Source: Isoetes taiwanensis (lineage: Eukaryota; Streptophyta; Lycopodiopsida; Isoetales; Isoetaceae). From it: DNA of 64,000 nt. The stretch is from positions 62,001 through 126,000 of the forward strand of contig JAJEKV010000330.1 in assembly GCA_021234155.1 (NCBI GenBank), read 5' to 3'. Positions 10,251 to 33,800 of this stretch are shown here, piece by piece. Under the pieces are notes generated by a model. It did no database searches and was not told where the DNA came from. It saw only the letters and a list, made by a program, of their open reading frames with translations. The stretch's first letter is position 1, and each line of letters opens with the position of its first letter. The translations under genes were made by a program, and so were the position numbers.

Positions 10251-10430
10251 CTTTTTCCCTAAGAGACCTATGCACCTAAGATCTCCCCTCTTAGAGAGAA
10301 TCTACTATACTAAAGGCTTTCATATTGTTATCGGATCCAACTTTTTCCCTAAGAGACTTATGCAACTAAGATCTCCTCGTAGAGAGGATCCGTGTACTAA
10401 TAGCTTTCATATTGTTATCGCGGTTGTGCC
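10251..10430. repeat. 90-bp tandem duplication inside the Helitron
   Basis: Two units begin with CTTTTTCCCTAAGAGAC at 10251 and 10341 and end with GCTTTCATATTGTTATCG. A separate 21-bp duplication (ATATAATGAGGGGCAACTT) lies just upstream at about 10123-10163. Confidence 0.85.
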
Positions 10431-11510
10431 ATATGATGGTTTCCACAAATGTTAGTGTGAAGCGTAATTTCACCTTCACACATAGATCAAATGAGTCGCA
10501 TGTACACAAATGGCTATGAAGCTAAGACTATGAAACAACTATGTATCGGGTAGACTTTTGAAGTGTAGCATGATACCAATTTCCGGTTTAGCATGATACC
10601 ATGATACCAATTTCAACTTAGCATGATACCAATTTGGGTGTTGCTTGAGTTAAACATTGAGCAACAATGCTTAGCTTACTTCTAAACAACACGACAAAGT
10701 TGATGCCATTGTGGATCTTTATAGTGATGGCCAAAATTTCCTACCTCACAAATAAACACTTTCAATCCTTCTATGAAATCAGAAGATCGTTTACAAACAT
10801 TATTCATATAAATGTAAATTCCATACAAACTCAAGACTACAAAGAAGGAGAATAATGGTTTTAGCATTATTATCTCCTCAACATATCTGTTCTAGAGAAT
10901 ATCACGGCATATATGAAGGTCTTGAACAAAGATTTACTTGTGACCGAACATACTGAACAAACACATTTGAACATACCTGGACATTGTCTGCAGTAAGCTA
11001 TGAATTTGATTAAAATTCTCACCTTACAACTTTATTATGTATGATTAACAACGAAATTGCATAGGTGAGGTAGGAATAGTACTCACCGCTAAATGGGAAC
11101 AATATTTTAGTAACCGAATTTACGGTAGTATGCGGATGTGCTCTCTGTTTTTTTTTTGCTTGTGAATATCACATGCACAATAAATACATGCCTCGCAGAA
11201 TTCATCTCAAATTAGTCACAACGATTGAAATTAGCCTAGAACCATACCTTAGAGGGATCTACTCGGAAGACCCCACAAAAGCCATGGTCGTAGGATCTAA
11301 AGCAAGTTACGCGTGTGTAGATATTTTGCTCTAGCAGGAATCTGAAAATCCGATTCACTTAGAATAATGGTATGTTTGTTAGCTTTTCTGCTCCAGCCTT
11401 AAAAATTTCTGGGCTTCCTTAAAGCCTTTGTCACCCCAAGATCCAAAGAACAATATACTCTTTGGTATCTTTGGAGAACAAAGGTTTAACAGATAGCGAC
11501 AAAAAACCGG

Positions 11511-11645
11511 ATAGTGGCACCTCCTTAAAGAAATAAAATTTGATAGCAAACAAACCTGGATAGTGGCACCTCCTTAAAGAAATAAAATTTCATAATCATC
11601 TAGTGGCACCTCCTTAGAAAAATAAAATTTCATAATCATCCGGGA
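11511..11645. repeat. Triplicated 40-50-bp unit inside the Helitron
   Basis: TAGTGGCACCTCCTTA followed by an AAATAAAATTT tract occurs three times, starting at about 11512, 11561 and 11601. The last two units also share CATAATCATC. Confidence 0.85.
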
Positions 11646-12492
11646 TCTTATATGCTTGATAAAAATCCTTACTCCATGACTCATTTCCATAGCGCTCATG
11701 TCGCTTCCTCTCTAGTTGAAAGCTCCTCTTGAACATGTGGAAAAACCTAAAAGGCAAAACCTTGTTAATTGAAGAGGCAGTCTAGAGAAGAGCTCTCATG
11801 ATTTTAGAATTAGGGATGCATGTCTTCTTTGCTCTTCGACCAACAACGAGAACAACATGTCCGCTTTTCACCAACAAAGAACAACATGTGCTACCTTGCT
11901 CTGGAACAACTCTAGCACACCGGCCGGTGATGGAACAAAAACTAATGTTTATAAACGAGGGATTTCATAGAAAAAAGGGGCTTCGTTTGGACCATCGAAA
12001 AAAAAAGGAGATCACATTTAAAGATAGATAGATAGTACTTTTAAAGAAAAAGGGGCTTTGTTTGAACCCTTCGATCGATCAAGTGATTTTGGCCATCGGA
12101 TCTAGGGCTAGATCCCTTTATCGGTTGAATCCCCATCGTCGAATTAAGCCAATCAAATTCTGGCCGCCAGTTTTAGGGCGTGGTCCATTACTTGCACTAA
12201 AACATTATAATATAGGATAGGATGACCAATTGTTGAGCACAAAACAAAGAAGATACTACTTACAGAACCAAGCATAAGGACATTTCAAAGATTAATGGTA
12301 TGGGTAAGGGTCATACAAGAGGTAAAGAAGGAGCTAGCTACATTAAGGTAAGCAGACAAAATAAGATAAGGTGATGTTCAACTAGAGGTAGGACAAGATA
12401 AACAAAAAAAATTCTTCAAAGAAGTTAAGCTATGGCAAAATGGTGCATATGGGCATTATTTATAATAATTTGTCTAGAAGCATCTTCTAAAA

Positions 12493-12624
12493 TGCCTGCA
12501 TCGAGCACCCTTATTATGGAATATGGATACATTTAATGCCTGCATCGAGCACCCTTATTATGGAATATGGATACATTTAATGCCTGCATCGAGCACCCTT
12601 ATTATGGAATATGGATACGTTTAA
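12493..12624. repeat. 44-bp unit repeated three times
   Basis: Perfect or near-perfect copies start with TGCCTGCATCGAGCACCC at 12493, 12537 and 12581. They lie in the 700-bp gap between the minus-strand Helitron and the inhibitor gene, downstream of the gene's stop. Nothing else is recognised from 12218 to 12914. Confidence 0.9.
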
Positions 12625-12914
12625 GCCACAAGCATATCCATGGTATATCCGCTTAAAACCAAACTTTAAAGAAAAAAAGAAGAAGAAATCAAAACATGTG
12701 GACTTAGAAGAGTTCTCGAGGGTTCAAGCTGGTTTAAACATGATGGTGTCCCATATAGATTAGCACGCACTGGAACATAAACCACAAAATTTAAATGTTA
12801 TTTGCATAATCTTGGAGAAATCACGTGGATTACTTATGCCAGTGTAAGGTAGTAGAAATACAAACTAATATTCAGCAGAGTAATATAATACATTATATAT
12901 GGTAATAGAGTAAA

Positions 12915-15775: not shown

Positions 15776-16418
15776 ATGAATACTGCATCAATTGATAGAA
15801 AACTTTTTGTCGAAACAAAAGCTTCAACAGAGCTTCAGACAAAAGATGAAAGGTAATACGAAGGTCACAACGACCATCTTTCTTCTTTCCATAATGCACA
15901 CATATTGACAAAGAAATTAAAAGTATAAAATCCTAATTGTGAGGGAAAACTAATTTATGATGATGCAAAAGCAAAAGTAGAAAGTCAGAAGGCCGATTTG
16001 GAAATGACGAAAGTGTTCGAGAAAAAAGAAAGAACATAAGATGAAGCTAGGTCTATGAAGATGATCCAAAATGGAGCCATTTCTCTTCAAGGCCCCAACC
16101 CGGCTTTATGCTACAAGACTGGTTTTAGTAGGGTCATTTTACGCATTAAAGGCCCAACAATTTATTTGTTACAAGGCTGAAGCATTGGGCATCCAGAAGA
16201 GTTATGGCACCGCGGCAAAGGCAAAAAATAGAGGAGGCGTAAAACAATCACACACATCGACAGCCTTTTTTTTGCTTTTTAAAAACGAAGTTAAAAAGAG
16301 GGCGGAATTTGATGGTGATAAACATTTTCGATTTATAGTAATTGCGACTTTTGAATTGATGAACTCGACTTTTTGCATATATCTATCAAAAGCCCACCAA
16401 CGGTGGGCATTTTACTAG

Positions 16419-19387
16419 TCCTATATTATAATGTTTTACAAGAATTCTCGGATTTGGATCCAGCCCTAGATTGACGGTTTTAGATCTAGGGTCGCAGATC
16501 CAACGCCGAAGCACCATAAGAATAGGAAAATTTCATCCCAACTTTTGGGCGCCGCTCGCCTTCATCGCCATAGCCATGCATACTCATTTCGGGCAAATCG
16601 GGCGCAAACGGTTGTCCAAATGATGGATTTAAACGATGGTGGAACCATTTTTGTGGGCAATAGGTTAGGAGATGACTACAAGGCGATGGTTTTGGGCACC
16701 ATCAATATATGCTAGGGTTTACTTTGCCACGCGAGCATTGGGCTTCTAGATCCCGAAGAAGGCACGCATGAGACACCAAGGCACAAAATGAAAGAGGTTC
16801 GTTTGCTCTTAAATCTTTTACAATGTCAATGTGTGTAAACTGTGGTCAACAAATTGCTTCCTTTTCTCGCCCTCGCACTTATGCCCCTCGAATTTGGTCA
16901 GTGGTGATTGCTTAAACAATTGCTTCCTCAACCGCTAAGATAGGGAAAGATGTGGTGGAACCATTTTTGTGGGCAATAGGTTGGAGATGACTACAAGGCC
17001 ATGGTTTTGGGCACCATCAATATATGCTAGGTTTATCGCCACGTAGCATTGGGCTTCTAGATCCCGAAGAAGGCATGATGTAGATATCTGCGCCAAAATG
17101 AAAGAGGTTCGTTTGCTCTTAAATCTTTTACAATGTCAATGTGTAAAACTGTGTCAGAAATTGCTTCCTTTTCCGCCTCGCACTTATGTCCCGGAATTTG
17201 GTCAACAGATTGCTAAAACAATTGATTCCTCAACCGTTTAAGATAGGGAAAGATGTTGTGTCTCATCGAAAATTAGAAGCCTAGCATGCCTTAATGATAG
17301 ACATGCACATTGACACTCTCTAGAGAGACCGCCTAAATGTTGAGAAAAATGAGGTTTTAAGCAAGCTTCAACAATAGACTATTGCTTACTTCATTGGAAC
17401 AGCCTAAGTAGCTAGAATTTGAAACATCTCGATGGGCCGGGCCTCGAGGAGTCCTTGAAAGAAGCTCAATCACCGCATGGTGTGCGTAAGAGAAAGCTAT
17501 CAAGCATCGGCCGCAGAATATTATAATTGCAACCCGGTTGATTGAGAAGTTGTAGACTCAATTGGGGCAATAAAGGCAAGATGAAATCAAAGGCACAACT
17601 TCTCTCCCCAAATAGATGCTCTTCTTGCTACTACGTCAAGCAAATTATCGACAAGGGAACAGTTGTTAACAATGCAATGAAACAAGAAATCGCCAAACCT
17701 AAAGGAAGGTAATGAAAAACTTTAAAGAGAAAGGAAGAAGATCCGAAAGGAAGATGCGTAAAGCCCGTGGACCTTCTCAAGTCCAATCAACAGATGACCG
17801 AAAGTGGTTAAATGAGCGGGTTGACAAATGTCCAGCTTGGAAATATTGGGATTGGTGGAGTCTCAAGATGCAACTTTAAATCTGGGATGACATATTTATC
17901 ATCTTATGAGAGACCTTCACCTGCTGGTACAGGGTTTCCATCACCAAGCTTTGAAGCTTAACTTCACAAGATGTGTCCCAGCCAATCAAGCTCAAATGGC
18001 AAATGACCCTTCAAGTGTGTTTGTTCCGCCATCTGATTTATCAAACTTGGATGTCCTTATCTAGCAAGGATATTTCTTCTTTTGATATAAAAATGACAAT
18101 AAAATTGCTAGCAACAAAAGGATGTGGGCTGCTATAATGCACTTTTATTACATGGGTTTGTATCCAAATCCTTTTGCAATACATGTGGCAATTCACATTT
18201 TCCATAAAGTTGATCAACATGGTTGATCCATAAATTAATCATTTATCTTTGAGCATAGTGATTGCAGGAATGGGAGGAGAAAACTTCGATAATAGAAGCA
18301 ATGAATCGCCTTCCCTTCATTGTCACGCTTCTTCTAATTTGCAAAGCCAGATGCATGTGCACATCATGCAAGCTTGCCTCTATGGCTTTTTCTTTTGCAA
18401 TTAGCAACCACCTTTGAACTTGAGTACAATCACAACATTATTGTATGGTTTTTTCTTTGCAACTAGCAACCCAACGTTAAACACCTTTGAACTTGAGTAC
18501 AATCACAACATTATTGACGTTGAGATCAACTATAAAATACAAAAATATGTGTATAGCTCAAAGTTATACCTAATGCAAACCATTGGTTTATGCATACATT
18601 TAACTACAACAACCATAACATTCGCACTAATAATGAACACTACCATTTTCATATATGAAACTCAAACATGCAACAATGTACATTTGTTTACAAGTTCATG
18701 GTCGCTTATAATAGAATGGTATCGTGAGCCCGGTTCGAGTTCATGAATACCGTGATCAATTGATAGAAAACTTTTTGTCAAAACAAAAGCTTCAACAGAG
18801 CTCGCATAAAAAAAGATGAAAGGTAATAATAAGGTCACAACGACCATCTTTCTTCTTTCCATAATGCACACATATTGACAGCAAATTAAAAGTATAAAAT
18901 CCTAATTGTGAGGGAAAACTAATTTATGATGATGCAAAAGCAAAAGTAGAAAGTCGTAGCGCCGATGCTGGAAATGACGAAAGTGTTTCGAGCAAAAAGA
19001 AAGAACATAAGATGAAGCTAGGTCTATGAAGATGATCCAAAATGGAGCCATTTCCTCTTCAAGGCCCCAACCCGGCTTTATGGGCTACAAGACTGGTTTT
19101 AGTAGGGTCATTTTACGCGATTAAAGGCCCAACAATTTATTTGTTACAAGGCTGAAGCATTGGGCATCCAGAAGAGTTATGGCACGATGTCAGGCAAAAG
19201 GCAAAAAATAGAGGAGGCGTAAACACCGACACACATCGACAGCTTTTTTTGCTTTTTAAAAACGAGTTAAAAGAGGGCGGAATTTGATGGTGATAAACAT
19301 TTCGTTATAGTAATTGCTACTTTTGAATTGATGAACTCGACTTTTGCATATCTAACAAAAGCCCACCAACGGTGGGCATTTTACTAG
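16419..19387 (+). mobile_element. Helitron, tandem copy 2 of 4
   Basis: Starts TCCTATATTATAATG immediately after CTAG of copy 1. Ends with the hairpin at 19361-19377 and CTAG at 19384-19387. Collinear with copy 1 over its whole length, but with numerous small indels. Many of these fall on CAG/CTG sites of copy 1 (for example GCCTGCACTTATG becomes GCCCTCGCACTTATG). Confidence 0.9.
17336..18006 (+). pseudogene. SAS6: SAS-6 fragment, Helitron cargo copy 2
   Basis: Collinear with the copy 1 fragment; ATGAAATCAAAGGCACAACT lies at 17581. The same three TAG stops are present. Several extra frame shifts break the 139-residue frame, mostly next to sites that are CAG or CTG in copy 1. Some of these may be sequence errors. 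Confidence 0.6.
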
Positions 19388-22336
19388 TCCTATATTATAA
19401 TGTTTTACAGTAATTCCTGGATTTGGATCCAGCCCTAGATTGGACGGTTTAGATCTAGGGCTGCAGATCCAACGCCGTAGCACCATAAGAATAGGAAAAT
19501 TTGGGTCCAACTTTTGGCGGCGCCTCCGCTTCATCGCCATAGCCATGCATACTCATTTCCGGGCAAATCGGCGCAAATCGGTTGTCCAGCGATGGATTTA
19601 AACGATGGTGGAACCATTTTTGTGGGCAATAGGTCGGAGATGACTACAAGGCGATGGTTTTGGGCACCATCAATATATGCTAGGTTTATCGCCACGCAGC
19701 AGCATTGGGCTTCTAGATCAAGAAGAAGGCACGTGAGACACCTCGCCAAAATGAAAGAGGTTCGCTTTGCTCTTAAATCTTTTACAATGTCAATGTGTAA
19801 ACCGTGGTCGCAAGAAATTGCTTCCTTTTTCTCGCCCGCACTTATGCCCCCGAATTTGGTCACAGATTGCTTAAAAACAATTGCTTCCTCAACCGCTAAG
19901 ATAGGGAAAGATGTGGTGGAACCATTTTGTGGGCAATAGGTTGGAGATGACTACAAGGCCATGGTTTTGGGCACCATCAATATATGCTAGGTTTATCGCC
20001 ACAGAGCATTGGGCTTCTAGATCCCAAGAAGGCATGATAGACATCTCGCGTCAAAATGAAAGAGGTTCGCTTGCTCTTAAATCTTTTACAATGTCAATGT
20101 GTAAACTGTGGTACAAGAATTGCTTCCTTTTTCCGCCCTGCACTTATGTCCCCGAATTTGGTCGCAGATTGCTAAAACAATTGATTCCTCAACCGCTAAG
20201 ATAGGGAAAGATGTTGTGTCTCATCGAAAATTAGAAGCCTAGCATGCCTTAATGATCGAGACATGCACATTGACTCTCTAGAGAGACCGCCTAAATGTTG
20301 AGAAAATGAGGTTTTAAGCAGACTTCAACAATAGACTATTAAGCTTACTTCATTGGAACAAATAAGTAGCTAGAATTTGAAACATCTCGATGGGCCAGCC
20401 TCGAGGAGTCCTTGAAAGAAGCTCAATCACCGCATGGTGTGCGTAAGAGAAAGCTACCGCTATCGCCGCAGAATATTATAATTGCAAAACCAGCTGATTG
20501 AGAAGTTGTAGACTCAACCGCGGGCAATAAAGGCAAGATGAAATCAAAGGCACAACTTCTCCCAAAGCAGGATGCTCTTCTTGCTACACGCCAAGCAATT
20601 ATCGACAAGGGAACAGCTTGTTAACAATGCAATGAAACAAGAAATCACAACCTAAAAGGAAGGTAATGAAACTTTAAAGAGAAAGGAAGAAGATCCGAGA
20701 AAGGAAGATGCAGAAAGCCCGTGACCTTCTCAAGTCCAATCAACAGATGACGAAGTGGTTAAATGAGCAAGCTTGACAAATGTCCAAATTTTGGAAATAT
20801 TGGGATTGGTGGAGTCTCAAGATGCAACTTTAAACTGGATGACATATTTATCATCTTATGAGAGACCTTCACCGCCGGGGGGGTTTCCATCACCAAGCTT
20901 TGCTTAACTTCACAAGATGCGTGTCCCCCAATCAAGCTCAAATGGCAAATGACCCTTCAAAGGTGTTTGTTCCGCCATCTGATTTATCAAACTTGGATGT
21001 CCTTATCTAGCAAGGATATTTCTCTTCGATATAAAAAAATGACAATAAAATTGCTAGCAACAAAAGGATGTGGGCTGCTATAATGCACTTTTTATTACAT
21101 GGGTTTGTATCCGAAATCCTTTTGCAATACATGTGGCAATTCACATTTTCCATAAAGTTGATCAACATGGTTGATCCATAAATTAATCATTTATCTTTGA
21201 GCATAGTGATTGCAGGAATGGGAGGAGAAAACTTCAGATAATAGAAGCAATGAATCGCCTTCCCTTCATTGTCACGCTTCTTCTAATTTGCAAAGCCGAT
21301 GCATGTGCACATCATGCAAGCTTGCCTCTATGGCTTTTTCTTTGCAATTAGCAACCACCTTTGAACTTGAGTACAATCACAACATTATTGTATGGTTTTT
21401 CTTTGCAACTAGCAACCCAACGTTAAACACCTTTGAACTTGAGTACAATCACAACATTATTGACGTTGAGATCAACTATAAAATACAAAAAATATGTGTA
21501 TAGCTCAAAGTTATACCTAATGCAACCATTGGTTTATGCATACATTTAACTACAAACAACCATAACATTCGGCACTAATACTAACCACTTTCATATATGA
21601 AACTCAAACATGCAACAATGTACATTTGTTTACAAGTTCATGGTCGCTTATAATAGAATGGTATCGAGCCCGGTTCGAAGTTCATGAATACCGTGATCAA
21701 TTGATAGAAAACTTTTTGTTAAAAACAAAAGCTTCAAATGAGCTTCATAAAAAAGATGAAAGGTAATAATGAAGGTCACAACCACCATCTTTCTTCTTTC
21801 CATAATGCACACATATTGACAAAGAAATTAAAAGTATAAAATCCTAATTGTGAGGGGAAAACTAATTTATGATGATGCAAAAGCAAAAGTAGAAAGTCAT
21901 AGCTACCGATGCCGAAATGACGAAAGTGTTCCGAAAGCAAAAGAAAGAACATAAGATGAAGCTAGGTCTATGAAGATGATCCAAAAATGGAGCCATTTCC
22001 TCTTCAAGGCCCCAACCCGCTTAAGTGTGCTACAAGACCTGGTTTTAGTAGGGTCATTTTTACGCATTAAAGGCCCAACAATTTATTTGTTACAAGGCTG
22101 AAGCATTGGGCATCCAGAAGAGTTATGGCACCATGTCAGGCAAAGGCAAAAAATAGAGGAGGCGTAAACACCGACACACATCGATGCCTTTTTTTTGCTT
22201 TTTAAAAACGAAGTTAAAAGAGGGCGGAATTTGATGGTGATAAACATTTCTGCTATAGTAATTGCTACTTTTTGAATTGATGAACTCGACTTTTGCATAT
22301 CTATCAAAAGCCCACCAACGGTGGGCATTTTACTAG
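19388..22336 (+). mobile_element. Helitron, tandem copy 3 of 4
   Basis: Begins TCCTATATTATAATG directly after CTAG of copy 2. Hairpin at 22310-22326, terminal CTAG at 22333-22336. Collinear with the others and carries the same cargo. Confidence 0.9.
20293..20952 (+). pseudogene. SAS6: SAS-6 fragment, Helitron cargo copy 3
   Basis: ATGAAATCAAAGGC at 20538 marks the coiled-coil start. The frame is broken repeatedly. The three TAG stops are shared or altered in the same places as in copy 1. Confidence 0.58.
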
Positions 22337-25276
22337 TCCTATATTATAATGTTTTACAATAATTCCCGGATTTGGATCCAGCCCTAGATTGACGGTTTAG
22401 ATCAGGGGCTGCGATCCAACGCAGAAGCACCATAAGAATAGGAAAATTTCGCCCAACTTTTATAAGGCCGCTCGCTTCATCGCCATAGCCATGCATACTC
22501 ATTTCCCGCAAATCGGGCGCAAATCGGGTTGTCCAAATGATGGATTTAAACGATGGTGGAACCATTTTTGTGGGCAATAGGTCTGAGATGACTACAAGGC
22601 TATGGTTTTGGGCACCATCAATATATGCTAGGGTTTATCGCCATGCAGCATTGGGCTTCTAGATCCTCAAGAAGGCACGCATGCAGACACACCGGCCAAA
22701 ATGAAAGAGGTTCGCTTTGCTCTTAAATCTTTTACAATGTCAATGTGTGTAAACTGTGGTCAAGAAATTGCTTCCTTTTCCGGCCTGCACTTATGCCTCC
22801 GAATTTGGTCAGCAGATTGCTTAAACAATTGCTTCCTCAATCGCTAAGATAGGGAAAGATGTGGTGGAACCATTTTGTGGGCAATAGGTTGGAGATGACT
22901 ACAAGGCCATGGTTTTGGGCACCATCAATATATGCTAGGTTTATCGCCACACGAGCATTGGGCTTCTAGATCCCGAAGAAGGCATGATTTAGACATCTCG
23001 CTAAATGAAAGAGGTTCGCTTTGTTCTTAAATCTTTTACAATGTCAATGTGTAAACCGCGGTCAAGAAATTGCTTCCTTTTCTCGCCTCGCACTTATGTC
23101 CGGAATTTGGTCATTAGATTGCTAAAACAATTGATTCCTCAACCTGTTAAGATAGGGAAAGATGTTGTGTCTCATCGGAAAATTAGAAGCCTAGCATGCC
23201 TTAATGATCGACATGCACATTGACACTCTCTAGAGAGACATTTAAATGTTGAGAAAATGAGGGTTTTAAGCAGCCTTCAACAATAGACTATTGCTTACTT
23301 CATTGGAAATGTCCTAAGTAGCTAGAATTTGAAACATCTCGATGGGCCAGCCTCCGAGGAGTCCTTGAAAGAAGCTCAATCACCGCATGGTGTGCGTAAG
23401 AGAAAGCCATCATTATCGCCGCAGCAATATTATAATTGCAACCAATTGATTGAGAAGTTGTAGACCGAATTATGGGCAATAAAGGCAAGATGAAATCAAA
23501 GGCACAACTTCTCCCGCCAGGATGCTCTTCTTGCTACACGCCAAGCAATTATCGACAAGGAACAGCTTGTTAACAATGCAATGAAACAAGAAATCGCCAA
23601 CCTAAAGGAAGGTAATGAAACTTTTAAAGAGAAAGGAAGAAGATCTCGAAAGGAAGATGCGTAAAGCCCGGGACCTTCGCCAAGTCCAATCAACAGATGA
23701 CTGAAGTGGTTAAATGAGCAGCTTGACAAATGTCCAAATTTTGGAAATATTGGGATTGGTGGAGTCTCAAGATGCAACTTTTAAAATGGGATGACATATT
23801 TATCATCTTATGAGAGACCTTCACCGCCGGGTGTGGTTTCCATCACCAAGCTTTGCTTAACTTCACAAGATGTGTGTCCCACCAATCAAGCTCAAATGGC
23901 AAATGACCCTTCAAAGGTGTTTGTTTCGGCCATCCGATTTATCAAACTTGGATGTCCTTATCTAGCAAGGATATTTCTTTTCTCGATATAAAAATGACAA
24001 TAAAATTGCTAGCAACAAAAGGATGTGGGCTGCTATAATGCACTTTTTATTACATGGGTTTGTATCCGAAATCCTTTTGCAATACATGTGGCAATTCACA
24101 TTTTCCATAAAGTTGATCAACATGGTTGATCCATAAATTAATCATTTATCTTTGAGCATAGTGATTGCAGGAATGGGAGGAGAAAACTTCAGATAATAGA
24201 AGCAATGAATCGCCTTCCCTTCATTGTCACGCCTTCTAATTTGCAAAGCCGATGCATGTGCACATCATGCAAGCTTGCCTCTATGGCTTTTTCTTTGCAA
24301 TTAGCAACCACCTTTGAACTTGAGTACAATCACAACATTATTGTATGGTTTTTCTTTGCAACTAGCAACCCAACGTTAAACACCTTTGAACTTGAGTACA
24401 ATCACAACATTATTGACGTTGAGATCAACTATAAAAATACAAAAAATATGTGTATAGCTCAAAGTTATACCTAATGCAACCATTGGTTTATGCATACATT
24501 TAACTACAACAACCATAACATTCGCACTAATACTTAACCACTTTCATATATGAAACTCAAACATGCAACAATGTACATTTGTTTACAAGTTCATGGTCGC
24601 TTATAATAGAATGGTATCAGAGCCTGGTTCGAGTTCATGAATACTGCATGAATTGATAGAAAACTTTTTGTCGAAACAAAAGCTTCAACAGAGCTTCAGA
24701 CAAAAGATGAAAGGTAATACGAAGGTCACAACGACCATCTTTCTTCTTTCCATAATGCACACATATTGACAGCAAATTAAAAGTATAAAATCCTAATTGT
24801 GAGGGAAAACTAATTTATGATGATGCAAAAGCAAAAGTAGAAAGTCGAGCTACTGATGTCGGAAATGACGAGTGTTCTGAGCAAAAGAAAGAACATAAGA
24901 TGAAGCTAGGTCTATGAAGATGATCCAAAATGGAGCCATTTCTTCTTCAAGGCCCCAACCCGGCTTTGGCGGGCTACAAGACTGGTTTTAGTAGGGTCAT
25001 TTTTACGCATTAAAGGCCCAACAATTTATTTGTTACAAGGCTGAAGCATTGGGCATCCAGGAAGAGTTATGGCACCCATGTCGTGGCAAAGGCAAAAAAT
25101 AGAGGAGGCGTAAACACCATTAACACATCGACATTTTTTTGCTTTTAAAAACGAGTTAAAAGAGGGCGGAATTTGATGGTGATAAACATTTCGTTATAGT
25201 AATTGCTACTTTTGAATTGATGAACTCGACTTTTGCATATCTAACAAAAGCCCACCAACGGTGGGCATTTTACTAG
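22337..25276 (+). mobile_element. Helitron, tandem copy 4 of 4 (right end of array)
   Basis: Begins TCCTATATTATAATG directly after CTAG of copy 3. Hairpin at 25250-25266, terminal CTAG at 25273-25276, then T, as expected for insertion at A^T. Its last 700 bases are closer to copy 1 (intact CAG/CTG at the primer-site motif) than copies 2 and 3 are. Confidence 0.9.
23245..23906 (+). pseudogene. SAS6: SAS-6 fragment, Helitron cargo copy 4
   Basis: ATGAAATCAAAGGC at 23490. Same arrangement and TAG positions as copy 1, with further indels that break the main frame. Confidence 0.58.
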
Positions 25277-25624
25277 TAGTTAGATATTTACCAAGCACTA
25301 AGAAGTGTCCTTTTCGAGTGGCCCAACACATCTATTTAGGCCTAGTTATATCTAGTTAATTAATGTATTAGCGTAACGAATACCACGTGGCTGGCCTTTT
25401 GTCAGAATGCTTTGACCGTTAGGGGCCAATCATGCCTTCCCAAATGGTAAATTGGGCCCGAATTTTTGAGCCTAATCGGCAAATTTTTGCACCAAGCCCC
25501 GCCAACTACAAACTTTCCCTCTAATTCCTACCGTAAAATGTCAAGAAAAATTAGTATTCTCGCAAGAAAATTTCCCGCTCTTTCTAAACTCGACGCGGAA
25601 TTTTAAAATCTACAATAGGTTATA

Positions 25625-25805
25625 AGGTGTAGATAACGCCTCGGTTTAGGACGTTACCCTGTGGTTTGAGGGCCAACTTAAAAATGCCGAGATGAGCAGG
25701 GCGGTATGCCGCATTTTCGGTGGCATTTTCGCTGGCCCAAAACTTTTTTGTAGGTAACGCCCGAGGGCCGTGGCTATCGCCTTAACGCCTCGGGTTCGAG
25801 GGTTT
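25625..25805. mobile_element. Fold-back element (MITE-like), left of recombinase gene
   Basis: The termini carry TAACGCC...GAGGG motifs and the arms pair imperfectly: TTTGAGGGCCAACTTAAAAA (about 25667) with GGCATTTTCGCTGGCCCAAA (about 25722). The same terminal motif GTAGATAACGCC opens the fold-back at 30512, so the two are probably members of one small family. The rest of 25277-26380 shows no gene; a short hairpin TAACCCA...TGGGTTA lies at 26032-26057 and a similar one at 26857-26880. Confidence 0.5.
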
Positions 25806-26384
25806 ACTTTGCAGCTGCATGCATGCATCAAGAGAGGAGAGGAGCCGGGAATGGGAGCGTAAGGAGCAAGCGAATGATGAGCCAGAGGACGCCTTAATGG
25901 CGCCATCATTTTCTTTTTAGGTCCGAATGTGCCGTTTAGATCTATCATCCGAGAATCTGCTGATTTCTCAAGATGCTCATGGCTAAACAACAAGAAAAAG
26001 ATCGCGAAGAGGATAACTCCTCCTTGGTTATAACCCACGAGGCCTTGAGTGGGTTATTTTGCATATAACTTAAAGGGAGGGGTTGGCCTCCTTAACCACG
26101 TGCCCCGCAGCTTAAGATTTAAGATCAGGTCGATTTAAGATGCCTGGATCCCAAAGGCCCCGGTGAAGTTTGACAATGTTGCTTAGCTCCGCAAATGGAA
26201 TAGGATTCTCGCCTTCCCGAGTTTTTTTTCTATGAAATGCCAACCACGCAGTCCATTTTGCTACTGACCGACGTACATTTTGGGTCTTTAGATCATAAAT
26301 TCAACGCTGTGAGCTTAACCACGTGCCCGAGCGCCAGCTTTTGTTTCTTCATTTTTCCTCCGTTTCAAGCATGATTTTGAGTGG

Positions 26385-26640
26385 GCGAAGAGGCTATGGC
26401 AGATCAAGAGGGAAAATCGCCTTGGCTTCCTAATGATGCCGATTTGATGCAAGAAACAGTGAAACCGCCGGATTTGTTGCAAGAAGAGGGAAAATCGCCT
26501 TTGGCCTCGAATGATGCCGATTTGATGCAAGAACATAAAGGAACCCGGCCGGATTTGTTGCAAGAAGAGGGTAGAAGCCGCAAGAACAGGTAGAGCCGCT
26601 GATTTGATGCAAGAACAAGGTGGAGCGCCGGATTTGATGT
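26385..26640 (+). repeat. Coding-like tandem repeat (DADLMQE / PDLLQEE units)
   Basis: An open frame from ATG 26396 to 26593 reads as repeats of GKSP...NDADLMQE and PPDLLQEE; the repeat continues past the stop in another frame (ADLMQEQGGAPDLM). Units are about 60-70 bp. It could be a separate small repeat protein or a degenerate upstream exon. No link to the recombinase gene is shown. Confidence 0.5.
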
Positions 26641-26891
26641 TTTAATGTTTTAGATAGGAGTTTCCGTCAACTGATGGATTTAGCGTGATTTTGCCGCGCA
26701 GCAGAGAGTGATACGTAGTATCATACAAATAAATCTTTCACGTAAGAATATTCTAAAGGTTATTTTAATAATCCATGGAATATTCTATAAAACTAATATT
26801 CGAGAGATTATCGATATAACCTCATCGTGATCTAACTACCGGGAACGTTGGATTCGATAACCCAGCGAGGCCCGTGGGTTAAGGGAAGAAG

Positions 26892-29800
26892 ATGCCCGCT
26901 AAAATGAGCAAGAATCGCTGTAAGAGGAGCAATGCAGACAAGCTTTGTGCCACTCCCCAGAAATCTCGAGTTTCTTCAGAAATTTTAGCAATAGATGCAT
27001 TGCCAGTTGATCTTATTGACTCTGATTCTGAATCAGAATCAGATGTTGAAGAATATGATGGTAGAAACAGCAAGAAATCAGGTAAATCAGGTTTTCTTGA
27101 TGCTGATGCAAGAATGGCTCTCACTTTGAAGAAGAAGGCCAGTACTGAGAGAAAAGATAATGCTTATGCCGAGAGATATTATGAATGGAGGAGAGAATAT
27201 GGTGGAAAATTGTTTGGAGTATCTTCATCATTTCAGAAACGAATTCAAGAGTTCAATAATCGAGATCCGTGGAGTTTGGTCAAGATCTTGTGTGTATTTT
27301 TGGCAAAAGCCAAGTTGTGCAAAGAAATGGAAAGGTGTATAAAGCAACGACAATAAAGGATTTCTTTGACTACTTTGGAAGGTTAGTTATCCGATATTCT
27401 AAGTTTGGTTCAATTACGCCTTTATATTAGTTTAAGGTTGAGAATTTTAGATATTTTAAGTTTAACTTATAGCCTTATAATAGCCATGCAAGGGAAAATC
27501 GTGGAAGGAGAATGCTTTAAATAGAATAGGCATGTCCTTTCTTGAATAGGCCTTCTTTTCTTTCTATTTAAATGAAAAGTTGAAAAACAATCAAAATCTA
27601 TTGAATATTTCAGAGCTAAATATGGGTGCATGCATCCGATGCATCCGGGTACATGGATCTGCACTCTAATGCAATAGTGAGAATGAGATGGCTATCCTTG
27701 CACTTCTTTAGCAATATAGTATGCTTCTATCGGCAATCCTTAATGCAGAAAGTGCTTTGTAGTCCAATAGTAGTGTAGAAGCATTTAAATACATTTATCT
27801 ACGCTTAAACTTCAGATTTAAGGCCTAGGCCGGAATTCTACACTGGTTTTAGAAATATACACCAGAATGTGATGCTAGAGTCCACACATGTTCTGCCACG
27901 TACTCACTGCAGGCTGTATTTGTTCATGCTGCCATCTTTATTTGCAACACGATTTTCTTCCAACCTATCTCCACTATGCTTATCAAGATTGCTTGTTGGA
28001 AAGAGCAACCGCTTTTACTTCTCTCTCACATAGGAAGTGACCGATCTATACCAGCCCTTTGATCAGCTCAAAAGCTCAGCCATACCGCGGATATGCTTAC
28101 ATATGCTTCTTAGAATGCACAAATCGGTGAAAGCTACATGTTATTGTCCATGTTATTGTTTATTTTGATTGTCCATGTTATTGTTTATGTCCATTCATTG
28201 TTGCGAGAAGGAAGAAATGACCGTGACGCAAGCACGGGTCAAGATGAGCCGATATCAATGTATTTGAGCATCCGCTTTTTGAGGCAAATAAAGAGTTTTT
28301 TAACAAAGTGATAGCAGATATTATGGCAAGGCAGCCAAGAAATCCGGATTCCTTTAATATGATAACTGATAAGGTAATTAGGATGTTTTCATTTCTGCAA
28401 CTAGATTAAGTAGATGCTTGTATTTTACTTGTATTTTAGATGTAAGGTTTGTACTATTACAGGTGATTGTGAAGGTCTTGGCAGCAGAAGAGTTTTTGCC
28501 ATCAACTCCAAATGGCCTTCTTAATCGGGTTATCTTCTATTGTATAACCAATTTTTTGATTCGTGGGGGAAAGGAGTTGTGGAATGTGGTCTACAACGAT
28601 TTTCAATTGATGCAAGATCGTTACGGGCGATTTGTTAGGTGAGTTTTTTATTTTCCTTTGTGTGTGTGTTGCTACTATTTGTAATAATTAATCTTTGCTA
28701 TAATGTGTCCATATTGTGTTTATGCAAAGGCCTTGTAAAAATCGGCCCGTGAGATCTGAATAATTGCAAGGAATCAGACCTAAGAAAGCCCTCATGAGAG
28801 GTGTGTGAAACAGCTTAACTAAGACTTATATAAGACTTTTGAAAAGTATATTTCTCGACTTCCACCAGTGGACGATGGAGAAGATGTTTCTGATCGCCAT
28901 TTTCTCAAGGCTAGTAAGACGTTTGTTGCTGGAGGATCAACTTGCTGGTATTCTAAGACAAATTTAGGGTGGAACAAAATTTTTAAAGTTGGAAAGATCA
29001 TGGGCAATATAGTGGTATTCTTTCATCCCTTTTGTCGCTGTGAAGTTTTCAAAATTTGAAGGCTAATTGTTTTGTTTTGCTCGATAGGCCTCAAGATAAG
29101 CAACAAGACATTGCGTCACTATGCAAATACAAGAGCTCGCCAACAAGGAATTCCTCGATGACAATCTTAAGGATTTAACCGGGCATAAACGGCCGATACA
29201 CTTCAGAACCATGACCATTGGTGTAAACTACTTTACAATGACGTTTTTTGTACATTTACAATGATATTTGTTTGATAGGAAAGCAAGCCATGATGGCAAT
29301 TAAGCGTAGCATTATGCCGTGGAAAGCCTTACCGCCATCTTGCAATGTTACAAGAAAACGGAGTATTTATGACTCATTTGTTATGCCCGTTTTTCTTCTA
29401 TTTCTTATCATTATTCGATTCATATAGTCAATGCACCGTAACGAGAATGTTGAAACGCCCATTGTCTGTCCCAAGAATTGGTTCTTGCCTTGGGAGAACG
29501 CTGGTGTTAAACCGCCTTCTAAGGCCGATCCGAGGAGTGGTGTTCAAAGAGCCGAAGCCGAGGAGCGTGTTCAAAAATGACCGAGGAGCAGTTGAGGAGA
29601 TTTTGCATCAATCTCGACAAAGAAATAGAACATGTGCAAAGAAATTTCTCCTCGCCACAAATTGCAATGCAAAGCAGGAGGCAACAAATCAGACTGGTAA
29701 TGATGTAATTTTATGCCTTTGAATACTTAAATTTCATGTGTGTTTTATTTATAGATGGCCAGCTGAAACCTCAACCTAATTTTCGACCACCATTGGCTAA

Positions 29801-30021
29801 TGTGACAAATGTCGGAGTTCCAAATGTTGGATATCCAAATGTATTCCTCGCATACCCTCCCCGTGGATTTAGTTTTAATTTCTCATTCTATTGGTATGTT
29901 TTTTTCATTCTGTTGGTACGTTCTATTGGTGTGTTCAAATTTCTGATTTTAATGGTTTTATGGGCAGAAAAATCCTTGGATAGATGGCAGCGATTATGAT
30001 CTCAGAATATTGGATACATGA
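26892..30021 (+). CDS. Crypton/DUF3504-like tyrosine recombinase gene, nine exons, three frame breaks
   Basis: Proposed exons: 26892-27381, about 28247-28373, 28463-28638, 28730-29014, 29088-29220, 29279-about 29363, 29428-29696, 29755-29893, 29968-30021, mostly with GT/AG borders. The N-terminus is basic and acidic (SDSESESDVEE), then KVYKATTIKDFFDYFG. Exon 3 has GLLNRVIFYCITNFLIRGGK, the block with the first catalytic Arg of tyrosine recombinases. Exon 4 has ERCV...LYKTFEKYISRLP and STCWYSKTNLGWNKIFKVGK, typical of Crypton/DUF3504 proteins. Exon 5 has SNKTLRHYA (H/K-x-x-R motif) and LTGHK. After GHK the +1 frame reads ADTLQNHDH, where the nucleophile Tyr is expected but His stands. Exon 4's first part has unresolved stops. 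Frames break at 27267-27271 (CCGTG), 29154-29157 (CTCG) and 29190-29191 (CG); reading CTG or CAG there restores them. Such recombinases are known mainly from fungi, stramenopiles and animals. Could be a transposon gene or a domesticated copy. Confidence 0.6.
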
Positions 30022-30129
30022 CGCCAGAATATGATCCGGATACATGGCAAAAGATGGCAAGTTACAAAGAAGGGAAAATATAGAAGTTAGAAACAGCTTT
30101 TAGTTACAAGAATTCTAGTTACAGCTTGT

Positions 30130-30282
30130 AAAAAAATATGTCACTTGTCAAAAAAATATGGCGCTTGTGAAAATATGGCAAGAAAAATATGGCAGCTTGT
30201 GAATATGGTAGTTGTGAAAATATGGCAAAGAAAAAAATATGGCAGCTTGTAAATGTGGCGCTTGTGAAAATATGACTTGAAA
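30130..30282. repeat. Minisatellite of AAATATGGCAGCTTGTGA-like units
   Basis: About seven imperfect short units of the form (A)n-TATGGC-(AG)CTTGTGAAAATATGGCAAG follow the recombinase gene's last exon. It may lie in the 3' UTR. Confidence 0.7.
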
Positions 30283-30511
30283 TCGTGATAATTACCGTGA
30301 TAATCATGACTATGATGTTTTGATAATCATTGTAATGTTCATATTGTTCTAGGATTTTATGAGATTATGTCTAATACTCTAGGATGTTATGAGAGAGAGA
30401 GTAGAAGTTGTGGGCCAATGAGTCCGTTATTAGCCGGGTAACAAAGATTTTTAATGGACGGCCGAGATTAGATCTCAGCCCGCAAAACCGTAGGAACCAG
30501 TATGCTAAAGG

Positions 30512-30720
30512 GTAGATAACGCCCCGGGTCGAGGGCTGCTATGGGAATAAAATTCAAGGGCAATATGGCCATGGCTAAAATGGCTCTAAGCAAGGCGTTA
30601 TGGGAATAGGTTAGTATTACGGCCATGGCCGGCAAGGGCGCATGGGAGCACGCCGGAGCCATTTTTGGCCATGGCCATATTGCCCGAGAATTTTATTCCC
30701 ATTAACGCCCGAGGGGGGCT
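30512..30720. mobile_element. Fold-back element (MITE-like), right of recombinase gene
   Basis: Long inverted arms: TGGGAATAAAATTCAAGGGC (30542) then CAATATGGCCATGGC pair with GCCATGGCCATATTG (30668) then CCCGAGAATTTTATTCCCA. The ends carry TAACGCCC and GAGGG motifs like the element at 25625. Confidence 0.7.
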
Positions 30721-30749
30721 GTATCTTTCCTTAACACCCCCGCCCCGAG

Positions 30750-30850
30750 GGTGTTATGAGAGCCTCGTGATAACGCCTAGGGTGTAATGAGCTCGTGATA
30801 ACGCCTAGGGTGTTATGAGCCTTTGTGATAACGCCTTAGGCATTATGACC
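30750..30850. repeat. Tandem 28-29-bp repeat (GTGATAACGCCTAGGGTGT)
   Basis: Three to four units of GTGATAACGCCTAGGGTGT followed by (T/A)ATGAGC, directly beside the fold-back. The repeat unit contains the TAACGCC motif of the fold-back termini. Confidence 0.8.
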
Positions 30851-30871
30851 GCTTTTAGCCATAAAAACCCA

Positions 30872-33800
30872 AGGAGCAGTGGTGTTAAGGGTTCTAGAGA
30901 ATTTTTCAATCCTAGCTCAATGGCATCAAAACTCCCCTTGCATGGGTCTATTTGTATTTTTGAGTTGCCCAAAAGGCAAAATCTATGGGAGGAGGTGATG
31001 AAATATCTTTTGATGCCAATCAATGTACCAAATTGATGGCTGTTAAATCTCACTACGCTGATGGCTCGATTGAAACCCCGCTACGCTATGTGAGTTAGAT
31101 ATAGATAGAGGCCGCTTTGCCGCTGATTGTCAGAAGAGTGCGAGAGGGCAATCCGACCATCCAATGTGCTTGTGATGCTCCATTGGCTTCTGAAATGCGT
31201 GGACTATCGTGAGTGCCCATCCGATTTAAGTTCGTCCAGACATGGCTTTTCAAAAAATTGGAGTGTGAGAGAAAATTCATCTCCACTCCCGGCGCCAAGA
31301 TTTGGAGTAAAGCAGCTTAGTTCTTCCTACATTTTCAACACATGTATTATTCCTATGCTTTTCGCCATGGCCATAGCCATGCCCCTAACTAGGAGGTCCT
31401 CCTTTTTCTTTCCCTTTTCCTCGGAGGAACGGATTTGGGGCACTAGATTGAAGATTTCCGATCAAATCAAGAGACATGGCGGATGATTCATATATGGCTA
31501 CAATAACGCGGGGTGCCTAGATATGGTGGGATAAGGCTTCAAGCTCGACTTGAAGCAACGAGGTGATGTTTTCGGGTCCATTGAAAACACTAACAGTTCC
31601 CATGATATCAAGCAATCATGTTGGACCTGCAAAGACCTAATCAGAGCCACATCTTAAGAAATATAAGGATTGAAAAGGAGGTCGGGCTTTTAACCTTCAT
31701 GGTGACAGCTCCCAAACATGGTGCAAATAGAGATGTGCACCCGACTTCAAGGAATGGTGCTATATACATTCCCAAATGGAGTAATCAGACATATCAACAT
31801 GGCCACCGCATGTCCGCAATGGAGATAGTCCATGCTCTTGTTGGAGATACCGCGATCAAGAGATGGAGATACTAGATCGTAAAATGGTGAGTGCAAAGTG
31901 AAACTAATGGAACAGATTTTACACCGGATGGTGCAGAGAAGGAAAGTGGATGAGACATTGATTAACTACCATAAACATCTCAAATAGAACTCAAATGTAA
32001 TCAAACCGTAAAGATAAACATTTTTTTTCAACTAACAATCAAAACAATTCAATTCAAAAGCATCTTCCCATTGATCAAGTAGAAAATTACATCAACATCA
32101 AGCTTTAATCAACCTATTGCCACATGCCATAGTCTACAAACTGTTTCTACAAAAAGAAAAAGATAGCAACAATTAAGAAAAGTATATAGCACTCAAATTC
32201 CCAAGCTACTTAAGATAGTCATTTGCTTCGCCCCTGTATAACCCATCCAAGCCCTTCAATTTTTCTGTCATGGCAGATCGATTCACTTTGACCGCTTTCT
32301 GGTTGGCTTTTGCTATGACTTCTTTCTCGGTTGGCTTTGGAAAAGCATCTGGTTCTATCTAGATTTCCCAAGGAGACGCCATTCCTTACCATTACTTATG
32401 TCTTTGCTCAACAGCTTTCAACATGTGGAAGAATTACATTTGAAGGTGGATAGATCTTCTTCTTTCTCCTCGGCAGCTCATCCCAAGAACAGATGTGTGT
32501 TTCTTTGTAATGAACAAGGTATCGGTTGCCCGCTGAATTTGGGAACTGGCTATCCTGCATGTCATGATTTTCAGGTGGTCGACTGTCCTGCATAGTTTCA
32601 TTCCAATTGTTTGCCTCAACCTCACCCTCCACATCATCCAACTGGTTATATTTTCTATAACCAAGGGTTCAAACTGAATTGCAACTTCCAAATTTACCAT
32701 TATTTTTTCACTCACCTGGTTGCTCAATTTCTCTTGTGTGCATGCACAAGATCTTGATGAAATTCATGGCCATCTTCTTCAACCTGCTGCAAGTGAACCG
32801 AATTTTCTCCAGCTTGTTCAAACAGTTCTGCTCCACTCTCTTCACTTGACAAGTCTTCGTACTCCATCATTCTTCTCGTTGGTCTTCTACTTCATTTGGG
32901 CCTCAGACCGCCCTCAGCACGTGTTTCCCTATCCACCGCTGCCCTCGCATGCCAATCTCTTCTTCTCTTCCCCTAGCTCTTCTATTCTCCTCTCTTCTTA
33001 CTTTTTCCTGCTCCCGGGCTACCTTCTTTTCTACTTAACTTTTTCTTCTCATCGATCTTTTGCTGCTTCAGTTGCTCAACCTCTTCATATTTTCTTTGGT
33101 GCTCAATTTCATTTGAATGACTTCATCATGGCTGATGTAAAGTCCTTTCCTAATCTCTAAAGGCAACCTTGCATTTCTTTTTTTTCTTTTTTTCTTGGAC
33201 CCCTGCCTCAGCCCTATTCTCAATTTGCACTCCTTGAGTATGCAATGAGCCTGCCCACCTACACGAGCCAATATCAATGTAAGTTTTAAATCTTAGCCAT
33301 GCAGCCATAATAGTCTCCCTCATACAAATGATTTATTCAATCTATTAAGATGTAAAGAACGTGATTCAAAATCAAAATCATGGCCTCATGGCAAAATGCT
33401 TTATCACATGCAAGGTCATGCGTGCAAGGTTATATGCAAAATACTAAAGGGAATGTAACCTATAGAAGATTATCTAATATACAAGAAAAATATAACCACA
33501 TTATGGACAAAGCAAGTGCTACAAACAAATGCCAAAAGCCCTATGATGTGTTCAAGAGTTGGTGCAGTATAGCCACTATTCCAAGCAAGATCTGCAAGAT
33601 TCTGTTTCATCGTTCAAAAGTATGTGTTGGAAGAACCATCTGATCAAGGACTGGGCCAACTTGAATTTCACGAATTTATTAGGTGTAAAAAAGGAGCCTG
33701 AAATCAGCAATCTGTGCCACAGGATGCATGAACTGGCAAGTAGAAGGATGCAAATAAGGCTGCAAATCTCCTTCACTTATTCATTTCTGAAAATGACTGC

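Follow-up and report, generated by a model that had tools for sequence, protein, structure and literature searches.

A decayed, very probably Crypton-like DNA transposon inserted at TANGG in the genome of the quillwort Isoetes taiwanensis

The window, by which we mean the whole stretch of 64,000 nucleotides that was analysed, contains a damaged element that is very probably a Crypton-like DNA transposon, one member of a large family in the nuclear genome of the quillwort Isoetes taiwanensis. Transposons of this kind move by means of a tyrosine recombinase, the type of enzyme to which phage integrases belong. The element has fixed ends and inserts at TANGG, where nothing is duplicated apart from a single core at either end. 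On the left, the core retains the third base of the target, and on the right it is TAAGG. Land plants have yielded hardly any descriptions of such elements, and the genome of I. taiwanensis provides unusually good evidence for how they insert.

Eleven further regions were fetched for comparison with the window, comprising ten other loci and an inverted duplicate of the window copy (L013). Similarity between the copies breaks off sharply at both ends. At the left end the order is host DNA, TA(A/T/C)GG and TGTAGATAACGCCC, and at the right end it is AACCAGGGCGT, TAAGG and host DNA. Judged from alignment alone, the left end is TANGG in all seven copies aligned, and the right end is TAAGG in five of the seven, with TAAAGG in the window copy and the end absent in L020. 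Twelve elements could be delimited at both ends: the third base of the left core is T in eight, A in three and C in one, and that of the right core is A in all 12, a count in which TANGG was part of the string that located the left ends, the TAAGG string located the right ends of L014, L016, L017, L018 and L056, alignment gave the seven remaining right ends, and fetched copies lacking an end were left out. The third base differs between the two cores in 9 of these 12 copies, and the cores are therefore not a target duplication.

The genome contains hundreds of left ends. The left-end pattern was found 774 times, against 274 for a reversed-pattern control (one mismatch allowed), and the right-end pattern 319 times, against 44 for its control. 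Among the first 100 exact left-end matches listed, which were tallied by hand and include 10 from a single array, the core is TATGG in 61, TAAGG in 36, TACGG in 3 and TAGGG in none; the 100 exact right-end matches listed all have TAAGG, some of them being internal inverted copies near left ends. The ends are of the kind expected of a Crypton (terminal direct repeats of 4–6 bp, no terminal inverted repeats and no long direct repeats), in that the cores are 5-bp TANGG sequences and the copies aligned have no long repeats at their ends. A subterminal inverted repeat is present near the right end, and inverted sequence lies close to both ends; we interpret the 11-bp inverted arms as recombinase sites rather than as terminal inverted repeats.

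Empty sites were sought by joining the flanks of 11 elements around a single core and taking the best 40 of 1039 candidates scored. The joined flanks of five elements (L014, L018, L039, L043 and L044) match elsewhere straight across the junction, and within the same best 40 no empty site was seen for the other six; among these six, the joined flanks of L046 lead to a different filled copy, and the sequence flanking L017 on the left is found again next to another left end. In addition, a single locus, L056, combines a filled site with an empty site related to it. The empty sites represent repeats that are related to the filled sites, and are not alleles of them. Seventeen were read, of which 15 have an exact TANGG (the exceptions being TATGT in L061 and TGTGG in L065), and in 17 of 17 the third base is the one found in the filled site's left core, three of these, for L018, being uninformative in this respect because both cores are TAAGG. 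The empty sites of the L014 group have 12 extra bases beside the core, which are missing from the filled site. Four or all five of the element's last five bases agree with the target, as insertion by a tyrosine recombinase would lead one to expect. Given that the related empty sites carry a single core, insertion takes place without target duplication.

The limits of the window copy were set by the points where similarity between copies ends (blastn against the ten other loci and the inverted duplicate) together with the TANGG cores. So defined, the element lies on the plus strand at 25623–30511, core to core, which exceeds the interval first noted (26892–30021), and relative to its sister copies it has been lengthened by DNA inserted later. 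The left core (25623–25627, +) is TAAGG and is taken to be target-derived. The left terminal region (25626–25800, +) consists of a TAACGCC repeat resembling a recombinase arm and then a long palindrome; it was recognised from the seven-copy alignment and from inverted self-matches of left ends, and is clearest in the sister copies. The coding start of the sister copies corresponds to about 25851 in the window, where the 5′ part of exon 1 begins (25851–26003, +). In sister copies this part reads MGTEGASG..APSFSLGS.., and by eye an APSFSLGS-like motif is present near the N terminus in several lineages. Exon 1 is interrupted here by a nested insertion of 874 bp (26004–26877, strand not assigned), with the right end ...GTGGGTTAAGG, that is missing from L014, L015, L016, L017, L018 and L020. 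The insertion starts near GAGGATAAC, and may be related, as a short form, to the type 2 elements described below.

The remainder of exon 1 (KMSKNRCK... ERYYEWRREYGG...; 26878–27381, +) was placed by comparison with the sister exon and is followed by the donor GTTAGT. Extra DNA lies within an intron at 27673–28096 (strand not assigned), at a place where L014 and L020 have about 50 different bases. The exon FEHPLFEANKEFF...MITDK (28248–28373, +) has an approximate 5′ border and the donor GTAATT, and the exon VIVKVLAAEEF...IRGGKEL...GRFVR (28463–28638, +), with acceptor CAG and donor GTGAGT, contains the codon for the first catalytic Arg at 28562–28564. The next exon (28717–29012, +; from an alignment of eight copies, 3′ border approximate) holds LYKTFEKYISRLP, WYSK and the catalytic Lys, whose context is CKN in sister copies. 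The exon NKTLRHY...TGH (29088–29221, +) has a changed donor, and C-terminal coding pieces with approximate borders (KQAMMAIK..., DGQLKPQPNFRPP...) occupy 29280–30083 (+). The right subterminal inverted repeat (GGCTGAGATTAGATCTCAGCC in sister copies) is at 30460–30481 (+), and the right core at 30506–30511 (+), where the window copy has TAAAGG and the inverted duplicate reads ...GGGCGTTAAAGG. It is directly adjoined by a second, short element (30512–30890, +; GTAGATAACGCC ... GTGTTAAGG), head-to-tail after the first.

The preliminary description drew a recombinase gene of nine exons at this place. Its motif blocks are present, with IRGG at 28559–28570, LYKTFEKYISRLP at about 28823, NKTLRHY at about 29100 and TGH at about 29180, and WYSK is also found. 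The nine-exon gene as drawn was not confirmed, the copy being broken: an acceptor is lost, two exons have indels, and exon 1 is cut by the 874-bp insertion. The lost acceptor, before the LYKTFEKYISRLP exon, is present in all eight other aligned copies, and the indels, in the LYKTFEKYISRLP exon and the TGH exon, are seen relative to all eight. The codon for the catalytic Tyr is TAT in 8/8 other copies, and CAT (His) in the window (29210–29212). As assembled, the window copy is non-functional, and the word “gene” is too strong for it.

L013 duplicates, in inverted orientation and on the same contig (C31), the whole 8-kb neighbourhood of the element. In a mirror test across C31 two stretches pair with the window: 24751–32801 with C31:225500–233500 (90.5%), and 10258–12673 with approximately C31:255353–257700 (93.6%). 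The mirror was not found to extend over the whole contig, as L080 has no long match in the window and L081 none in the window or in L082. Private changes over a stretch of 1.05 kb number 62 in the window, against 9 in the inverted duplicate and between 8 and 34 in each of six other copies. Given that so many changes are private to one arm, and that they include 27 transversions and 25 transitions, a balance unlike that of the other copies, part of the damage may be assembly error in the window arm of the inverted duplication, an arm that could be chimeric or insufficiently polished. The nested insertion is likely to be real, because it lies within the stretch that aligns with the inverted duplicate. 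A tandem array of approximately 2.95-kb units occupies about 15890–25300 of the window, and a 0.53-kb piece of L013 matches the window at 15890, 18860 and 21801 and from 24751.

A search with the profile PF12012 (DUF3504), which had been proposed as a check, was positive: in a six-frame translation it matches the window at 28502–28981 with 33.4 bits (cut-off 29.7), the matched stretch crossing an intron and including seven stops. For L014, the spliced domain gives a DUF3504 match of 9.5e-10 (39.2 bits, cut-off 29.7) and a Phage_integrase match of 1.2e-5 (25.7 bits, below the cut-off of 27.1), and the lineage L033 matches Phage_integrase at 1.9e-7, above the cut-off. Among seven aligned proteins, at E ≤ 0.1, six match Phage_integrase and two DUF3504; four of the seven match a PHROG integrase, the best at 3.7e-11. 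Against solved structures, the profile gave weak matches to integrase, XerC-like, QRICH1 and XerA chains (0.008–0.78), while L014 as a single sequence gave weak matches (0.07–0.54) outside the catalytic part of lambda integrase and L033 as a single sequence gave none.

The residues aligned across lineages are R (in IRGG), K (SKN/CKN), R (NKTLR, NKSCR), H (TGH) and a Y that sits nine residues past the TGH His. The sister copies, in which the recombinase blocks are separated by introns, keep R, R, Y and the TGH His, and have Lys in place of the His of HxxR (NKTLR, NKSCR). Where the canonical R-H-R-Y tetrad has this His, lineages 1 and 3 have Lys, and different residues occur elsewhere. Among the structural features that we compared, this replacement by Lys is the only one in which the element departs from Cryptons, the circular form being presumed.

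Retrotransposons of the DIRS, Ngaro and PAT groups also use tyrosine recombinases, and the ALOG genes of plants have been traced to a DIRS-like tyrosine recombinase (PMC3537659), so that one might think of a retrotransposon whose reverse transcriptase was lost or overlooked. We consider this very unlikely. All 23 frames of at least 60 amino acids in the L014 element were scanned with Pfam, each at least in part, and no reverse transcriptase, RNase H, methyltransferase, GCR1_C or other enzyme was found at the cut-off; the only matches are to DUF3504 and Phage_integrase. Long end repeats are likewise missing from the aligned copies. Instead of the reverse transcriptase and RNase H that accompany the recombinase in DIRS-like elements, the tyrosine recombinase stands as the only mobility enzyme, as in Cryptons.

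A translated search of the genome gave at least 165 matches (best 150 of 598 candidates scored). By hand count, about 20 loci, including the window, have a match of at least 75% identity among the matches listed, which places the recombinase similarity far above chance. Two readings had been offered at the outset, a little-known plant lineage of these elements or a domesticated gene. The former is strongly supported, by the multiple copies, their sharp ends, a target site of tyrosine-recombinase type and the empty sites. The latter, a host gene derived from a Crypton in the manner of ZMYM, QRICH1 and KCTD1 in animals, would suit the multi-exon structure. It would also suit L076, L077 and L078, a divergent tyrosine recombinase lineage with long open frames, dN/dS of 0.085–0.11 between loci, and TGQ replacing TGH, as in a gene losing catalysis; these three are possibly a constrained gene family. 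As an account of the window copy domestication is extremely unlikely. A domesticated DUF3504 gene is expected at a fixed single locus without element ends, whereas the window copy and its approximately 20 relatives are dispersed, and several of them have element ends and insertion sites. For the window locus domestication is not supported: the copy is damaged, has element ends and belongs to a dispersed family.

Beyond the window type, the lineages recognised are L024–L029 (type 2), L033 and its relatives, and L076–L078. A search of the L033 type gave at least 159 matches (best 150 of 1793 candidates scored), many of them without stops. L015 and L016 share 99.3% identity across about 1 kb and have different left flanks, and dS between L033 and L074 is 0.036, which suggests recent movement of some copies. 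Three L033-type copies that were compared have the termini CCATATTGT and no TAAGG, and the TANGG result is therefore limited to the window type. In type 2, the right ends at six loci are TTAAGG in four and TTAAAG in L029, with the end absent in L028, and the left end GAGAGGGATAACGG is present in three of the four loci aligned there. Type 2 matches form three clusters within about 12 kb at L029 and its neighbours (C1036:2266452–2277983). Two element copies lie in opposite orientation about 4 kb apart in L022 (C606:36500–46400), and an open reading frame that by eye resembles a LINE reverse transcriptase (L034:3–1118, minus strand) adjoins a recombinase copy.

The L014 unit is approximately 3.8 kb long, and there are also shorter units. 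Nineteen loci were taken by an exact left end (L038–L056), and seven of them have the right ends of the full element, giving units of 636–916 bp. L056, with a short unit of 878 bp, has a weaker right-end match, so that both ends are kept in 8 of 19; for the other 11 no matching right end was found within the stretch fetched. Copies and empty sites occur on scaffolds of up to 53 Mb, which makes an oomycete or algal contaminant unlikely.

Tyrosine recombinases of a kind also found in Cryptons are carried by Polinton-like viruses of cryptophytes, which are thought to circularise before integration (PMC12220804). An origin of the window feature from an endogenous virus or a Polinton-like element, as a remnant with such an integrase, is nevertheless hardly credible, as Pfam attributes none of the genes in the approximately 3.8-kb L014 unit to viruses and a single-protein scan, which reaches close relatives only, found no relative among viral contigs. 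A second single-protein scan of the same reach found none among prokaryote genomes. We give equally little credence to the idea that TANGG is incidental to the ends of a TIR/DDE transposon or Helitron that carries the recombinase as a passenger, an idea that would fit the inverted sequences near the ends but not the unequal cores (no target duplication), the single core of the empty sites, or L014, where no other transposase was found.

The Crypton-like reading is also in keeping with the tandem copies. In an array on C13, successive elements have one core in common. Across the genome there are 16 occurrences of the tandem junction GGCGTTANGGTGTAGATAACG, nine of them outside this array, and none of its reversed control. 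The core common to the tandem neighbours is TAAGG in 11 of the 16 and TATGG in 5; the latter are not what a simple polarity model would lead one to expect. Short elements with TANGG cores in common lie head-to-tail in L037 (C13:361300–371000), where left ends are spaced about 600 and 1200–1300 bp apart, partly in alternation.

We propose that the recombinase would bind the arms CCAGGGCGTTA and TAACGCCCTGG, bring the two cores together and cut with its Tyr, so that the element would be excised as a circle with the junction CCAGGGCGTTA-AGGTGTAGA-TAACGCCCTGG. This junction would be an 11-bp inverted repeat around 9 bp; sites of tyrosine recombinases generally have arms of 11–13 bp and a spacer of 6–8 bp (PMC3212892). 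The excised circle would then recombine with a genomic TANGG, the exchange taking place on the GG side of the variable base, and derivatives without the gene could be mobilised in trans. The empty sites and the tandems with common cores agree with integration, at a repeat, of an excised circle that we infer. The element very probably works like a Crypton, its circle and activity being predicted from sequence.

Annotations already name Crypton for land plants, and we do not present its bare presence in plants as new. In the portions of these papers that were available, Crypton is listed among the superfamilies found in all taxonomic groups studied (PMC4438587), a survey of Dracaena gives 24 Crypton fragments totalling 1,719 bp (PMC6294377), a Brassica napus paper names Crypton as a repeat class (PMC8245426), and another paper merely names the class (PMC7353026). 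Among the literature matches listed, titles and the starts of abstracts describe no Crypton from a lycophyte, fern or bryophyte, in a search that supplements, most subscription papers and Repbase lay outside, and the word is missing from the main text, as far as available, of two Isoetes genome papers.

The circle model for Cryptons is itself a proposal by analogy with prokaryotic elements (PMC3212892, in part). Here, one plant genome offers filled sites, related empty sites, tandems with common cores and many left ends, which define the target site and the direction of exchange and form a ready substrate for tests of excision and integration. The presence in a vascular plant of well-resolved Cryptons that seem to have moved recently bears on the age of Cryptons and on a possible transfer between oomycetes and plants, and suggests that such elements may be missed when the repeats of seed-free plants are annotated. 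A wider reading, which we offer tentatively and consider rather unlikely as a whole, is that Isoetes harbours old and diverse tyrosine recombinase transposons of at least four lineages, some recently mobile and with differing termini, which came from an early plant stock of Cryptons or by transfer from water-living oomycetes or diatoms, and that L076–L078 (TGQ, dN/dS about 0.1) are a constrained host gene family.

Comparison with known systems places the element as follows. Integrases of the SSV1 type in archaea have the signature R..KxxR..Y (PMC8371274, in part), and Lys likewise replaces His in the Isoetes copies; host and element are unrelated, and the parallel is confined to the active site. 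CryptonF, of fungi and oomycetes, is also a tyrosine recombinase DNA transposon with short terminal direct repeats. It encodes GCR1_C and mostly has repeats of 6 bp (PMC3212892, in part), whereas the Isoetes element has no GCR1_C match. CryptonA, CryptonI and the animal DUF3504 genes (ZMYM2-4, QRICH1, WOC, KCTD1 and KIAA1958) have in common with it the domain whose cut-off is passed by both the window and L014, and animal QRICH1 is one of the weak profile matches (0.17) of the Isoetes recombinase. Animal Cryptons are described as lacking terminal repeats and the animal DUF3504 genes as having lost catalytic residues (PMC3212892, in part), whereas the Isoetes element has cores and its sister copies keep R, R, H and Y. 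A parallel in termini is seen with CryptonS of oomycetes and a diatom, which is likewise a DNA transposon with a tyrosine recombinase only and 5-bp terminal direct repeats and lacks GCR1_C (PMC3212892, in part); in the Isoetes element, too, no Pfam match to GCR1_C was found. TATGG, reported in the same source for the termini of most CryptonS, is the core of the 61 left ends tallied above, a match at one end only, as the right core in Isoetes is TAAGG. The Isoetes element differs from CryptonS in its land-plant host and its intron-bearing gene. Its core resembles the CryptonS termini; the likeness lies in the termini and the missing GCR1_C, and kinship with CryptonS would be conjectural.
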